From: Akkermansiaceae bacterium
Lineage (GTDB): Bacteria > Verrucomicrobiota > Verrucomicrobiia > Verrucomicrobiales > Akkermansiaceae
NCBI GenBank assembly: GCA_023253625.1
Contig: JALRFY010000183.1
Coordinates: forward strand, 1-56,739
Length of the DNA stretch: 56,739 nt
Direction: 5' to 3'
The notes below the pieces were generated by a model that saw nothing but the letters and a program-made list of their open reading frames with translations, searched no databases and was not told the origin of the DNA. The position numbers were made by a program, and so were the translations under genes. The first letter of the stretch is position 1; each line of letters opens with the position of its first letter. This document shows, one piece after another, positions 16,412 through 22,808 of the stretch.

Positions 16412-18964
16412 TCAGTCCGTATCGCGCGGGATTTTCGCCAGCACGATGCGGAATCCATAGTAGATGTCGCGGTAGTCGGGGGGCACGGCGTTGCGTGATC
16501 CGGAGTAGAGGTTTTCCGGCTGGTAGGTGTTCCAGCCGCCGCCGCGCAGCACGCCGAGCATGTTGTTGCCGAGGCGTGAGTATTCGTCGTCCACCCATTC
16601 CTGAACATTGCCGCTGAGGTCATGGATGCCGAGCGGGTTTTCGGTGAATGATCCGACCGGGGCAGTGAATGGATAGCCGTCCTCGTATCCCGGGATGGTG
16701 CGGTCCAAGGGGATGGCACCGGCGCTGGCAGCGCTGTCGTCCGCGAAGTTGCCGGGTGCATCCCGCGGCGGCCAGGCGATGCCCCATGGAAAGACCTGCC
16801 GCTTGCGCGCGTCGCGCCAGCCGGGGCTGATGCCGCCCTCGTCTTCCAGTCCCACAAGCATGCTCCATTCGAGGTCGGTGGGCAGCCGGTATTGGTGGGT
16901 GGAGCTGATGCGTTCCTGCTCGCGTTCGCGGCGGTTGAGCCAATCGCAGAAGGCCCGCGCGTCCTTGCGGGAAACATTGATCACCGGGTGGTCCGGCTCC
17001 TGGGCGAAAGGCGGCGGCGGCGGCGGGCGGCGGCCGGTCTCGGTGACAAACAGCGCGAAATCGCTCAGTCGCGTTTCCCAAGCCGATGCCATCAGGTCCG
17101 GATTTACCGGGACGAAGCGCATTTTGATGCCGTTTTCCCATGGGCGGCCGAAAACGACGCTCTCGTTTTTCTGCAGCTTGAGGTTTTCGCGCAAGCTGCC
17201 GCCCTCGCCAAGCTTGAGTGTCTTGGTGAGAGGTTTGTAGCCTTGGAGCACGAGAAGCAGCTTGAGGTTGCCGGGTTTGAGAGCCATCAGGTCGAGCGGA
17301 CTGTCGGTGGTGCCCACGTATTGGCCGTTGAGATAAACCTCGGCACCGGCGGGATCGCTGGTGAGAGTGAGACTGCCTGGATTGAAGCGCCTGACTACGA
17401 TGCGGAACGGTTTGAGCTGGGCCTGGAGCGCGTGGCTGCCGACTGACGGATGATCGAAATCCTCCTCGCGGTGCGCCTGCAGTTCGAACTCCTCGGTCAG
17501 CCGTCCTTCCTGGATCGCTGCGGTGCGCAACCACTGGCAGAAGGCCTCGGCACCGTGCGCGGTGACGAGCATCGCATTCACCGGGGTGCCGCCATGGGAA
17601 TATGACAGCGATTCGGTCTCGCCACCGGCTGCGGCACCGCCGTCTGCGATGAATTCCTCCCACGAGGCACGGTCCACAAAACCCTCGCTGACATGATGGT
17701 TTTCCACCGGCTGGTAGCGGTTGCCAAAGTGGTCTTCCCACCACTCGCCGGTCACCGGTGGTTGGAACGGTTTCATGGAAACGGGGATCACCATCGGCTC
17801 GTTAGCGGCAGCCAGGCCGATGCGTTCACGGATCGTGGTGTCCTGGTAGTTCTTTTTGCGAAGCGTGAAGACCACCTCGGTGCCCATCTCGGCGGTGAGC
17901 GTGGGAGTGGGCGTGGTGCCGATGAGCAAACCCTGGGGATCGATCACATCGGCCCCTTCCGGTGTGCTGAAGATCCGGAACTGGCCGATGGCCGGTGGCG
18001 GATCCTGATGCATGGTGAAGGGAGGGGATGAGAACCAGCCGGCATCGGCCGCCACCTGCCACATCGCCCAGCCGGAAAACCCGGTGAGCGCCACTGTGGC
18101 GGCCCATACCAGTGCGGTGCTGCGGCGGCCCCGCTGGCCTTTGCCGATGCGGCGCAGTGCCTCCGCGAGTTGTCCCGCGGTGGTGATGATGCGGTGGGAA
18201 ATGCGTGGTTCGCAGACATCGCAGATCACGCGGTTGAGTTCCAGCCATGGCCGCCGTTCGGCACCCTGCGGCATCTCGTCGGGCAGTTCCGGGAAATTCA
18301 TCCGGTCCTTGCCGGTCGCCATCTCATAGAGCACCTTGCCCAGGCTGTAGATGTCCGCCTGCGCCGAGCCCGGGCCCTCCGGCGGCACGAATCCCTCGGT
18401 GCCAACGAATGTTCGCTGGCCGCGGGCCGCCACCAGGCCGATGTCGGCCAGCTTTGCCCGGCCATTGACGAAGATGATGTTGGACGGCTTGACGTCGCGG
18501 TGTGCGAGCCCGTGCTGGTGCAGGTGATCGAGAGCCTCGGCCAGGCGCAGCCCCACGTCGAGGCACTCGGCGGTGTTCCAGCGTTCGATGCTGGCGCGCG
18601 GATGGTCGGCGCGCAGCGTGCGGGGTTCATATTCCACCGGATTGATCTCTCGGCCGCCGTTGACGTCGTCGCCGAGCTCCATCACATAGTAGTAAAAAGA
18701 GACGCCGTCCGGGCTGCGGCCCACGTGCAGAATATTGACCAGTGCTGGGTGATCGCGCGAGATCGGCTCGAACTTCAGGATGCCCTCGAATTCGCGCTCG
18801 AAACCGCGCTCGTCCTCGAAGTCCTGCCGCCACACCACCTTGACGGCGCGCAGGGCACCGGTCACGCCCCGCGCCAGCCAGACCTCGCCGTAGGCACCGC
18901 CGCCGATCTTGCGGAGAACCTCATGGTCCGGAATACTGGGGAAGGGGCGCGTTTCAGCCGGCAT
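16412..18964 (-). CDS. Serine/threonine protein kinase with PEGA and FGE/SUMF1-like modules
   Basis: IGGGAYGEVWLARG...AVKVVW, HRDVKPSNIIF, KLADIGLVAA; TM helix TALVWAATVALTGFSGWAMW; PEGA SLTLTSDPAGAEVYLNGQYVGTTDSPL; FGE-like C-terminus YRLPTDLEWSMLVGLE...NPLGIHDLSGNVQEWVDDE...LRGGGWNTYQPENLYSGSRN. Confidence 0.92.
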   Translation of the reverse strand: MPAETRPFPSIPDHEVLRKIGGGAYGEVWLARGVTGALRAVKVVWRQDFEDERGFEREFEGILKFEPISRDHPALVNILHVGRSPDGVSFYYYVMELGDDVNGGREINPVEYEPRTLRADHPRASIERWNTAECLDVGLRLAEALDHLHQHGLAHRDVKPSNIIFVNGRAKLADIGLVAARGQRTFVGTEGFVPPEGPGSAQADIYSLGKVLYEMATGKDRMNFPELPDEMPQGAERRPWLELNRVICDVCEPRISHRIITTAGQLAEALRRIGKGQRGRRSTALVWAATVALTGFSGWAMWQVAADAGWFSSPPFTMHQDPPPAIGQFRIFSTPEGADVIDPQGLLIGTTPTPTLTAEMGTEVVFTLRKKNYQDTTIRERIGLAAANEPMVIPVSMKPFQPPVTGEWWEDHFGNRYQPVENHHVSEGFVDRASWEEFIADGGAAAGGETESLSYSHGGTPVNAMLVTAHGAEAFCQWLRTAAIQEGRLTEEFELQAHREEDFDHPSVGSHALQAQLKPFRIVVRRFNPGSLTLTSDPAGAEVYLNGQYVGTTDSPLDLMALKPGNLKLLLVLQGYKPLTKTLKLGEGGSLRENLKLQKNESVVFGRPWENGIKMRFVPVNPDLMASAWETRLSDFALFVTETGRRPPPPPPFAQEPDHPVINVSRKDARAFCDWLNRREREQERISSTHQYRLPTDLEWSMLVGLEDEGGISPGWRDARKRQVFPWGIAWPPRDAPGNFADDSAASAGAIPLDRTIPGYEDGYPFTAPVGSFTENPLGIHDLSGNVQEWVDDEYSRLGNNMLGVLRGGGWNTYQPENLYSGSRNAVPPDYRDIYYGFRIVLAKIPRDTD

Positions 18965-19625
18965 CGTTCTGTTCCTCGAGTTTTGCCAACTCGCGTTTGA
19001 GCACGGCACCCACCCGGTGTTTGGCCAGATAAACCTGTGCCATGCTGACGTTGAGTTTTTCACGCACGCGGGCGGCATCCCACTGCTTGACCACGTAACA
19101 ATCGAATATCTGGTATTGTTTCGGCGAGACTTGGGCCTTCACCCGGGCCAGCGCGGCATCGGCGAGGTTTTTCTTCCACTCCACGTCCCACAGGCGTGAG
19201 AGCAGGTCGCCCTCAGGGTCCTCGACGCGGTCGATCACCGCGGTCTTGCGGTCGTTTTCCCAATCGCCACCGGTCATGGCGGTATCCTTCCTGCGCTTTC
19301 GAAACTGGTCGTTGATGCGCCAGCGGGTCATGTTCATCAGCCAGGTTTTGAAGGATCCCTGCTTGGGGTCGTAGAGGTTTTTTTTGCTTTGTTTGGCGAT
19401 GGAGAGAATCGTTTCCTGCACGCAGTCGAAGGCTTCCTCGTTGCGCAGCCCGGCCTTGATGGCCACCGAGTAGATGAGCCGCCAGTAGGTTTGGTAAAAT
19501 TCGTCCCAAGTCCGCTGGTCCTCCCAGTTCTCCAAACGCGCAATCAGGCTCTTGCGTGTTTTCGCAAATGCATGCTGCAGCGCTTCGTCGCGGCCCTCGT
19601 CTTTTTCCTCGTCGTCGATTGACAT
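18954..19625 (-). CDS. RNA polymerase sigma factor, ECF-like
   Basis: TWDEFYQTYWRLIYSVAIKAGLRNEEAFDCVQETILSIAK; sigma4-like YQIFDCYVVKQWDAARVREKLNVSMAQVYLAKHRV. Overlaps the kinase start by 11 bp. Confidence 0.92.
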   Translation of the reverse strand: MSIDDEEKDEGRDEALQHAFAKTRKSLIARLENWEDQRTWDEFYQTYWRLIYSVAIKAGLRNEEAFDCVQETILSIAKQSKKNLYDPKQGSFKTWLMNMTRWRINDQFRKRRKDTAMTGGDWENDRKTAVIDRVEDPEGDLLSRLWDVEWKKNLADAALARVKAQVSPKQYQIFDCYVVKQWDAARVREKLNVSMAQVYLAKHRVGAVLKRELAKLEEQNDAG

Positions 19626-19817
19626 CGCCATTTCCTTAAACCATTCCGGCCCGGCTGTCTTTCACGGAATCCGGAATTTCTCAACTCTTTGGCAATCAAT
19701 GGTAAAAAATCGCTCAAGGATTCCGAATCATCGAGGAACGTGAATTTTCGCCTTTTGAATTCACAAACTGCCGATGGGTTTATCCGCGAAAACCAGCCCC
19801 ATTGAAGGGATGCTGTT

Positions 19818-20657
19818 TTACCGTGACCGGTTGTCCGGCAGGTACCAGGGCGGGTTTTTCTCGATTTGCTCGCGCAGTGCGGGGAAGGCTTCCCCCATCT
19901 GCTTTTCGATATGCGGCCAGACCACGATCATCTGCATTTGCAAGGCGATGAAGAGACCGGGCACGTATACGGCGATCTTTGCGGGATGCAGCGGGGCGGA
20001 TTCGAGCCGGTGGCCGCCGGCCATGTCCCACAATGGCTTGCCAAGGCGGCGGGTGGTGAAGAAGGCCATCAGTTGGCAGAGCAGCGCAAGGATGCCCCAG
20101 CCGAGGCCGATGCCGAGGAAAAGCACGCGCATCGAGCGCCGCGTGGCCGCGCCGAGCGCGAGCGGCGAGCCGTCGTCGTTGCGCACGTGGATGCCGAGCA
20201 GCCACTTGCCGGGAGTGGTGCCGAAGCGGTGCAGCAGGAATGCCTCGAGGGCGAACCACGGCAGATATTGCAGCAGGATGAGCCAGACGTTTTCGAGGAC
20301 TGCGCCGATGTCTCGGCCGGCGGCCCACATGCCGAGCCACCAGAAGCCGGAGTAGAGATAAAGATCGAACCAGCGCGCCCAGAAGCGGCGGATGAGGTGG
20401 GGCGGGGATGACGGCGGCTGCCGGGGCAGGGGAGGGGGCGGCTCGCTCGCGGTTTCCGCTGCCGGGGCGGGCGGCTCGCCGGGTATTTCAAACTCGCGCG
20501 CGAACAGGGGAATCTCCGCAAGCGGCCGCCAATCGGGCAGTCCCTCATGCCATGCCGGGGATTCGCCGGTAAGCACACCGGCACGTATTCTCGAGCGCAC
20601 CTCGAAATCGGGCAGCGGCCCGGATTTTTCGCCGTTTTTGATGATCCAGACGTCCAT
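19818..20657 (-). CDS. GYF_2 domain + RDD family membrane protein
   Basis: N-terminal MDVWIIKNGEKSGPLPDFEVRSRIRAGVL...WHEGLPDWRPL (GYF-like), then RDD segment LIRRFWARWFDLYLYSGFWW...TTPGKWLLGIHVRNDDG. Confidence 0.85.
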   Translation of the reverse strand: MDVWIIKNGEKSGPLPDFEVRSRIRAGVLTGESPAWHEGLPDWRPLAEIPLFAREFEIPGEPPAPAAETASEPPPPLPRQPPSSPPHLIRRFWARWFDLYLYSGFWWLGMWAAGRDIGAVLENVWLILLQYLPWFALEAFLLHRFGTTPGKWLLGIHVRNDDGSPLALGAATRRSMRVLFLGIGLGWGILALLCQLMAFFTTRRLGKPLWDMAGGHRLESAPLHPAKIAVYVPGLFIALQMQMIVVWPHIEKQMGEAFPALREQIEKNPPWYLPDNRSR

Positions 20658-20665
20658 GTGATGGT

Positions 20666-22225
20666 TCAGAGGTTGCGCAGGGATTTGGCGGCATCGCTGC
20701 GCGCGGCGAAAAACGCCGGGACCAGCGCGGCCAGCGAGCAGAGGACAAAGGCGAGCAGGCCGATCACCGCCTGTTCAAGCGGGTTGTTGTGAGCGGGCAG
20801 CACGCCAAAACCGGTGAACGAGGCCGCGAATGGGTCGAATCCCAGTGTCCGGAACAGGCCTTGGATGGGGCCGCGGAAATGAATCACCACGCGCCCGAGG
20901 CCGACGCCGAGCACCGCGCCGCCGAGGCCGAGGATCATACCCTGATAGAGAAACACCCGCACGATCTGTCCCGGTGCCGCGCCGAGCGCCTTCATCACGC
21001 CGATCTCGCGCCGCTTCTGGATTGTCACGGTGAACATCACCGCCATCATCGAGAAGGCGCTCACCAGCACAATGAAAGACAAAGCGAAATACATCATCAC
21101 GCGCTGCTGGTTGATGAGGGCGAAAAAGGTCCGGTATTGATCGCCCCAGGTGAGCAGCGACCAATCCGGGCCGACTATCCTCCTCGCGGCCGTGGCCACC
21201 TCCTCGGCGGCATAGGCGTCGTCGAGTCGCAGCGCGATGCCCTGCACCGCCTCGCCCAGGCCGGCGAGATCCTGCGCCAGTGGCAGCGGCACGAAGATGT
21301 CCGGCGTCACCGCCATCTGCGATGCCTGGTAGACGCCTGTCACCAGCGCTTCCTTCGGCAGCACGACCTGCCGCAGGCCTTTCAGCGCCTCACCGTCCAT
21401 TTTTTCCACGTCGGTCGTGTCGATCCCGGTGATCAGGCGGGTGATCTCATCAGCGCCTTCGGCATCGAAAAAGTAACAACCCTGTTTCTCGTCCTTTTCG
21501 CCCGCTTCCATGGCGATCAACAGGCTGTCGAGCAGCTCGCGCTCGGGGTCGCGCAGGTCGCCCGCCCGCAGGCCGTCGAGTTTCTGATAGATTCCAAGCA
21601 GCGTGTCGATTGCCACGCCGCGGCGTCCGTCCACCTCCTGCCATGCTGCGGCGAGTTGTGTTTTTACGGTGCTCCATGTTTCCGCGAAGCGCTCGCGCAG
21701 CGGTGGTTGTTCGGTGAGCTTGTAGGCGCGCATGACCTCCTCGAAGTTGCGCGTCGAATAGAGCCGCACCGTGTCGCCCGGGCGCAGATGGAGCTGCCCG
21801 GCGAGGATCGAGGAAATGACCGCGCGGTCGTCGATGCCAAGGTCGGCGGTGGAGTCCGGGAAATTCTCCAGATCGAGCATCTGGCGGATGCCCTCGACCT
21901 GCGCGGGGTCCGCGGTGTCGATGCCGCGGAACATCACCGGACGCTGCCACGATTCCACATCGATGATCACGTTATCGGTGACGTATGCGGTGGCCGTCTC
22001 GACGCGTGGCAGGCTGGTTGCCAGTTCGGCCGCATCTTCCCAGCGATTGAGCGGCAGGGTCCCCATGCCGCCCGGGCTGTGTTCCATCAGGATGTGCGGT
22101 GTGAAGCCGAGCAGCCGCGCCTTCACATCGCGCTCAAGACCGGCGTAAACCGCCATCACCACCACCAGCACCAGCACGCCGAGCATCACCCCGATCAACG
22201 AGATGAGCGTGAAGGAAGACAGCAT
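20666..22225 (-). CDS. ABC transporter permease, LolC/LolE (FtsX) family; real start probably upstream of 22225
   Basis: FTLISLIGVMLGVLVLVVVMAVYAGLERDV; FtsX C-terminus VMFTVTIQKRREIGVMKALGAAPGQIVRVFLYQGMILGLGGAVLGVGLG. In-frame upstream peptide KRRSFSLLLARRYLNPRRA looks like the family N-terminus. Confidence 0.9.
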   Translation of the reverse strand: MLSSFTLISLIGVMLGVLVLVVVMAVYAGLERDVKARLLGFTPHILMEHSPGGMGTLPLNRWEDAAELATSLPRVETATAYVTDNVIIDVESWQRPVMFRGIDTADPAQVEGIRQMLDLENFPDSTADLGIDDRAVISSILAGQLHLRPGDTVRLYSTRNFEEVMRAYKLTEQPPLRERFAETWSTVKTQLAAAWQEVDGRRGVAIDTLLGIYQKLDGLRAGDLRDPERELLDSLLIAMEAGEKDEKQGCYFFDAEGADEITRLITGIDTTDVEKMDGEALKGLRQVVLPKEALVTGVYQASQMAVTPDIFVPLPLAQDLAGLGEAVQGIALRLDDAYAAEEVATAARRIVGPDWSLLTWGDQYRTFFALINQQRVMMYFALSFIVLVSAFSMMAVMFTVTIQKRREIGVMKALGAAPGQIVRVFLYQGMILGLGGAVLGVGLGRVVIHFRGPIQGLFRTLGFDPFAASFTGFGVLPAHNNPLEQAVIGLLAFVLCSLAALVPAFFAARSDAAKSLRNL

Positions 22226-22340: not shown

Positions 22341-22357
22341 ACGCCGTGTCACGGCGT
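22341..22357. repeat. Short near-perfect palindrome
   Basis: ACGCCGTG-T-CACGGCGT. Confidence 0.6.
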
Positions 22358-22547
22358 GATTTCCTTCTGCTGCGATTCCAGTTTGAGACATCCCGAAAAA
22401 GCGTCCCTGCCTTGGAACATCAACGATTACGGTTCCCGGTGCCCAAGTCGTCCGATGGCCGTGAAAAATTATGTAAAAAACTTCTTTGCAAATGCGGAAT
22501 CGAGGTCAGCTTTCCCGCGTTCGGCGATACTTAGGTATGCTGAATCA

Positions 22548-22680
22548 GTTGTTGCCGAGCCGGGTTTACATCCGGTCCTGGTCTCCGGGGGGAAGCCAGG
22601 TCGATGCACCCAGTGCCGGCTCAACTGTCAAACAGCGCGCGTTGTGATCTCCGGGGGGAAATCCAACGCGCGCTTTTTTT
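22548..22680 (+). ncRNA. Candidate structured small RNA with two identical 12-nt hairpin loops
   Basis: Possible -10 TATGCT (22536-22541). Outer stem GTTGccgAGCCGG / CCGGCTCAAC. Hairpin 1 CCTGGT-[CTCCGGGGGGAA]-GCCAGG (22577-22600). Hairpin 2 GCGCGCGTTG-t-GAT-[CTCCGGGGGGAA]-ATC-CAACGCGCGC (22635-22673), then T7. Confidence 0.7.
22635..22680 (+). terminator. Rho-independent terminator
   Basis: 10-bp perfect stem GCGCGCGTTG/CAACGCGCGC plus GAT/ATC, followed by TTTTTTT. Confidence 0.85.
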
Positions 22681-22808
22681 ATTCTGTCATCCGAAACTCG
22701 CAAAGGCACGGAAAGTTGACAAAGTTCACAAATGCGATCAGGATTGGGCCTGATTTGGGATTTCAATCAGGCCTGCGGAGGGTGTTTGACGGGGGGCGCG
22801 CCTGAGAA

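Follow-up and report, generated by a model that had tools for sequence, protein, structure and literature searches.

A multicopy superfamily of twin-hairpin RNAs with paired GGGG tips in part of the family Akkermansiaceae

Background

Why should two successive hairpins with unlike stems end in one and the same tip? The question is raised by a locus on the + strand of a 56,739-nt stretch of DNA from an Akkermansiaceae bacterium (contig JALRFY010000183.1; the whole stretch analysed is referred to as the window). A preliminary description, made from the sequence alone, took the locus for a small RNA in which an identical 12-nt loop is exposed twice. We confirm that the observation is real and conserved and does not result from chance. 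The locus is a member of a genuine multicopy sRNA superfamily, which is absent from Rfam and, in these searches, limited to part of Akkermansiaceae; its carriers are environmental bacteria related to Akkermansia of the gut. No description of an sRNA regulator family in Verrucomicrobiota was found in the open-licence literature.

Results

The family core in the window (22551..22685, +) consists of hairpin 1, a linker, the terminator hairpin 2 and a T-tract, and is matched over its full length by the family covariance model R2 (96.2 bits, E 7.9e-27; the window copy was itself among the R2 training sequences). Hairpin 1 (22577..22600, +), delimited by the fold and by covariation, has the stem CCUGGU/GCCAGG (22577-22582/22595-22600) and the tip UCC-GGGG-GGA at 22584-22593, with the GGGG tetraloop at 22587..22590 (+). 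Hairpin 2 (22635..22673, +), based on pairing and covariation, is an intrinsic terminator with the stem GCGCGCGUUG/CAACGCGCGC; its tip, again UCC-GGGG-GGA, occupies 22650-22659, and its GGGG tetraloop, assigned by the tip survey given below, 22653..22656 (+). The T7 tract follows directly (22674..22680, +), as described earlier. The two copies of CTCCGGGGGGAA are indeed found on the + strand at 22583-22594 and 22649-22660; they are the sole matches in the window when one mismatch is allowed (0.39 expected). Both hairpins fold as claimed, the MFE of 22545-22682 (+) being -71.3 kcal/mol (z = -5.8 against shuffles). The notion of an exposed 12-nt loop needs correction: only GGGG is unpaired, and the flanking bases form a 3-bp UCC/GGA stem, which pairs and covaries. 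A further helix thought to enclose hairpin 1 (22551-22563 with 22616-22625, i.e., 22551..22625, +) is present in the fold of the window copy and absent from the family consensus; it is specific to this copy.

The neighbours of the sRNA in the window include a GYF/RDD gene at 19818-20657 and, at 20666-22225, a lolC/E-like gene; the region 16412-19631 encodes a sigma-70 region 2 protein and then a protein kinase-PEGA-FGE-sulfatase fusion.

Both window tips read SGGK in one frame that is open here (22356-22805). The explanation of the repeated tip as a coding artefact deserves next to no credence, being contradicted by the other copies: over 60 loci, where the tip-to-tip distance is 59-71 nt, the spacing is divisible by 3 in only 22, and a stop occurs in that frame in 37.

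BLAST of 59 genomes (the window's own and its relatives) gave matches in 23, often several per genome and including some at chance level. Covariance models, R1 first and then the wider R2 built from 54 sequences, were run on whole genomes. R2 matches 60 of the 260 genomes of the same family, almost all of which belong to g1, the genus of the window, or to g19, which we guess to be Luteolibacter-like. From g18 and g24 came only weak matches, and those examined (L211, L212, L213) are ordinary terminators; among 388 genomes of the phylum there were five weak matches (<=32.5 bits) outside the family, with no twin tips in the examined ones. Such weak matches were rejected, as those examined in both sets have no twin tips and are mostly ordinary GC-rich terminators. 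A pattern scan of GTDB found 61 loci, 44 of them in entries titled Akkermansiaceae, Luteolibacter, Akkermansia or Verrucomicrobia-type MAGs; the loop pair found outside Akkermansiaceae (17 GTDB loci and 3 viral contigs), with no or weak and mostly partial model matches, was set aside. In Rfam, the gathering score and a relaxed E-value returned only chance-level matches (trpB, NsiR1), in agreement with the initial impression that no established family is involved.

Loci with the twin hairpins (type I) were examined at 87 distinct sites, nearly all with the same tip pair. Such loci were found in two genera of Akkermansiaceae, g1 and g19, with one to several copies per genome, and these searches gave none elsewhere in the phylum; the window's own genome has a second family copy on another contig (model match C276:2442-2579). 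The neighbouring genes differ between copies, with several syntenic sites and no single partner, which argues for a free-standing gene rather than a leader; a fixed neighbour gene or a cis-acting leader is thereby ruled out.

The homologues in Verrucomicrobiota that BLAST and the covariance models retrieved have covarying stems, as the check proposed in the preliminary description required. In an alignment of 25 loci CCGGGGGG is invariant in both hairpins, and 12 of the 25 pairs show compensatory changes. In 54 distinct sequences, 87.2% of the cells of the 27 pairs can pair, and 20 of these pairs have changed on both sides. Covariation scored 0.325, compared with 0.173 in shuffles; none of 500 shuffles reaches 0.325, a count that is not a probability because the sequences are related. 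The slid controls, with a score of at most 0.114, are the safer comparison. In hairpin 2, 98.5% of the cells are paired over the 54 sequences, and 10 of 12 pairs have changed on both sides.

The stem of hairpin 2 also indicates the strand: it contains 48 G-U cells and 2 A-C cells, which points to a functional RNA on the + strand and not on the - strand. Hairpin 1 by itself does not indicate a strand (57 G-U, 59 A-C, much of this in the poorly aligned outer part). The count in hairpin 2 contradicts the suggested likeness to a minus-strand 6C RNA with C6 loops. The minus strand does fold well (-72.8 kcal/mol); nevertheless, the terminator would then precede the other hairpin, the 6C model of Rfam gives no match at the gathering score, and the loops of the transcribed + strand are GGGG and not C-rich, so that we regard a minus-strand RNA as extremely improbable. 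An sRNA of about 130-170 nt on the + strand, with two hairpins, one common tip and stems free to change, is supported.

The hairpin 2 region (22630-22680 in the window) also gives a minus-strand match to the family model (24.1 bits), and A- and T-tracts flank this region in many relatives. It may act as a bidirectional terminator. These features, together with the many copies, would also be expected of a dispersed, REP-like repeat or bidirectional terminator without a trans function. Such an element would not account for a promoter, an operator, hairpin 1 and a second tip conserved in one orientation, for the G-U bias in favour of the + strand, or for the different terminator of the sister group described below; we consider it highly unlikely.

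The tip survey clarifies what is kept. The GGGG tetraloop of hairpin 1 is present in 86 of the 87 type I loci, and UCC-GGGG-GGA is exact in 69 (hairpin 1) and 71 (hairpin 2). The exceptions are mostly still paired (UCU-GGGG-AGA, GCC-GGGG-GGC, CCC-GGGG-GGG, UCU-GGGG-GGA), which again indicates that the unpaired part is GGGG and not twelve bases. The invariance is an upper estimate, since retrieval by the tip pattern or by a tip-rewarding model favours loci that keep the tip; loci with altered tips (L157, L168-L170, L171) were nonetheless retrieved. The comparison of sequences supports the view that selection keeps both tips while the stems drift.

Two deviations should be mentioned. The paralogues L168, L169 and L170 (genomes G017 and G025) have the same promoter and operator and both tips altered, UCU-GGGG-AGA-like and CUGGCUGGG; they are possibly a sub-family with another partner. 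In L046 (G173) hairpin 1 has lost its G-tip, whereas the tip of the terminator is retained and contains eight Gs.

The loop sequence can pair with itself over 8 bp, and kissing of the loops within one RNA or between molecules was proposed; the core of such pairing, within one RNA or between copies, would be CCGG. Isolated strands would pair, with -14.7 kcal/mol for loop 1/loop 1 and -11.4 kcal/mol for loop 1/loop 2. Opening one tip costs about 7 kcal/mol, though, and cofolding of hairpins 1 and 2 brings no gain (in a program that has no kissing-loop model). Members with UCU-GGGG-AGA tips and, usually, the second G-runs of the sister group have no CC to pair with. A kissing or dimerising RNA therefore seems quite unlikely.

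The sister group (type II), brought to light by divergent matches and examined at 50 loci, has hairpin 1 with the same tip, usually a second G-run that is unpaired or weakly paired (often CUUUGGGGGGAANUGUGC), and then a terminator with an ordinary loop. Its model, R3, matches 49 of the 260 family genomes, nearly all in g1 and many with several copies; among them are single-contig genomes that have no type I match (G004, G139, G240). In a subgroup with CAACCUCG...CGAG the second G-run is shortened or lost. Because the first tip and usually the second G-run are kept, it is the G-run that recurs and not one fixed hairpin. Type II loci (e.g., L252, L253, L261) also have a conserved UGUGC(A) box after the second G-run, separated from it by a few As in varying number.

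Many copies in g1 are preceded by a pair of direct repeats, TGGCCGNTTTTGGGA, at a spacing of about 20 bp; these are followed by CTTTC, some 17 nt and a box resembling TAATTT. The repeat pattern occurs at 19 sites in 24 genomes, mostly at promoters of family members, and the reversed control gave about none; one repeat-bearing promoter belongs to type II (L166/L200, G015:C55). The repeats are recognisable in part of g19, and other copies, including that of the window, have diverged promoters. Sequence comparison thus supports a common conserved promoter with two operator-like repeats in many copies, and conservation marks the element as a free-standing unit with its own promoter and intrinsic terminator, the promoter being weak in the window copy. 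There, a single TGGCCG half-site (22456..22461, +) is aligned roughly where relatives have the two repeats, and the region that would correspond to the CTTTC box, the 17 nt and the TAATTT-like box (22484..22519, +) is a poor match. The hexamer TATGCT (22536..22541, +), earlier read as a -10-like element, is not conserved in relatives, and the family promoter lies further upstream; a scan gave no sigma-70-like pair.

Repeat sites elsewhere, of which four were examined, are at a diverged element (L192), at L193, before a GYF-domain gene (L198, G114:C25:119847) and before a LolD-like ABC gene (L206, G114:C38:17491). In view of the last two and of the GYF/RDD and lolC/E-like neighbours in the window, the regulon of the operator may include envelope genes.

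Discussion

Free-standing genes, a common operator, multiple copies and a tip that hardly varies while the stems do are what one would expect of a trans-acting RNA; the combination of a conserved seed with freely changing stems is that of multicopy trans-acting sRNAs in general. We give an even chance to a multicopy trans-acting sRNA with two GGGG seeds that bind C-rich mRNA sites, in line with the capture of mRNAs by the loops that the preliminary description offered as one of two mechanisms. Both tetraloops, each resting on CC/GG pairs able to open, would serve as paired seeds; they would bind C-rich stretches close to where translation of several mRNAs begins and would block these mRNAs. 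The RNA would act without Hfq, possibly with the help of an RRM protein, and having several copies under common control would increase the amount of the one seed that they share. The calculated energies allow such seeding: the predicted binding energy of loop 1 is -25.5 kcal/mol for a matching C-rich site and -8.9 kcal/mol for CCCC alone, to be compared with the cost of opening a tip given above.

A search of 14 genomes for the target pattern TCCCCCCGG-N(3-16)-ATG revealed no recurring leader and gave scattered candidates (e.g., L223, L235, L248). The sole recurring match (6 of the 6 g19 genomes searched) lies inside a coding sequence and was discarded. The far lower count in the reversed control was not used as support, since this comparison is biased by ATG and by codon usage. 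The tip complement TCCCCCCGG is also found in the 3' part of a tRNA-Leu-like gene (L234, G015:C6:1223), probably by chance.

With no target found, protein titration stays the main rival of the two-seed sRNA. The G-motifs would bind an RNA-binding protein, e.g., an RRM protein, and titrate it as CsrB and RsmZ do CsrA. A motif that each RNA carries twice in identical form, in hairpin tips and in single-stranded linkers, would suit a decoy, and multiple copies under a common upstream operator repeat the design of CsrB/RsmZ. The tip is exact in about 80% of the loci, which is stricter than simple pairing with a C-run seems to need and would also fit recognition by a protein; RRM proteins were found in 12 of the 12 genomes tested. 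The g18 genomes without the RNA also have RRM proteins, though, and we know of no protein that binds UCC-GGGG-GGA. CsrA (PF02599) is absent from all 59 genomes, as is Hfq (PF17209), with positive controls in both cases, which rules out a decoy of CsrA itself and an Hfq-dependent sRNA. On the whole, we hold titration to be possible, if doubtful. It is tempting to go further and to propose a superfamily of co-regulated RNAs whose paired tips would be high-affinity sites for a global RNA-binding protein of Verrucomicrobiota, i.e., a Csr-like post-transcriptional switch in a lineage that has neither CsrA nor Hfq; this we consider unlikely.

The kind of RNA suggested by the two-seed reading, multicopy, Hfq-independent and loop-seeded, is already known. 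What is new is that the RNA, whose sRNA function we infer, bears a pair of GGGG tips and that the terminator carries one of the two. It inverts the better-known design, as it has G-loops where other Hfq-independent sRNAs have C-rich loops. A multicopy, structure-supported and apparently co-regulated RNA in a lineage that has neither Hfq nor CsrA offers a direct way into sRNA regulation there.

The decoys CsrB, RsmX, RsmY and RsmZ carry repeated GGA motifs in loops and linkers and have several genes with upstream activator sites; the present family is similar in its several genes and its upstream sites, and perhaps in its repeated GGA-containing motifs. The motif itself is different, ANGGA in the decoys and UCC-GGGG-GGA here: GGGGGGA occurs twice per RNA, in the tips or the linker; within the tips its GGA takes part in the stem, and ANGGA shows no conservation.

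The sRNA sX13 of Xanthomonas, which is Hfq-independent, has C-rich loops and G-rich targets (PMC3771888). It shares with our family several stable stems, homopolymer-like loops with the seeds (proposed ones in our family) in them, and no need of Hfq; it belongs to a different phylum, and G-loops in Akkermansiaceae imply that targets would be C-rich. The actinobacterial 6C and B11 RNAs also have homopolymer loops, one of them in the terminator, and a host without Hfq, and in B11 it is the terminator loop, rich in C, that recognises the targets (PMC12395582); their loops are C-rich, whereas those of the present family contain G4/G6. The FopS/GibS RNAs of Bacteroides, with the RRM protein RbpB, are likewise multicopy and dispersed, with a common short seed, their own terminator and an RRM protein present (PMC11697453). 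They are set apart by architecture, since FopS has one seed per RNA, in a single-stranded 5' stretch, and one terminator hairpin (PMC11697453). The situation of the host resembles that of FopS and RbpB in Bacteroides.
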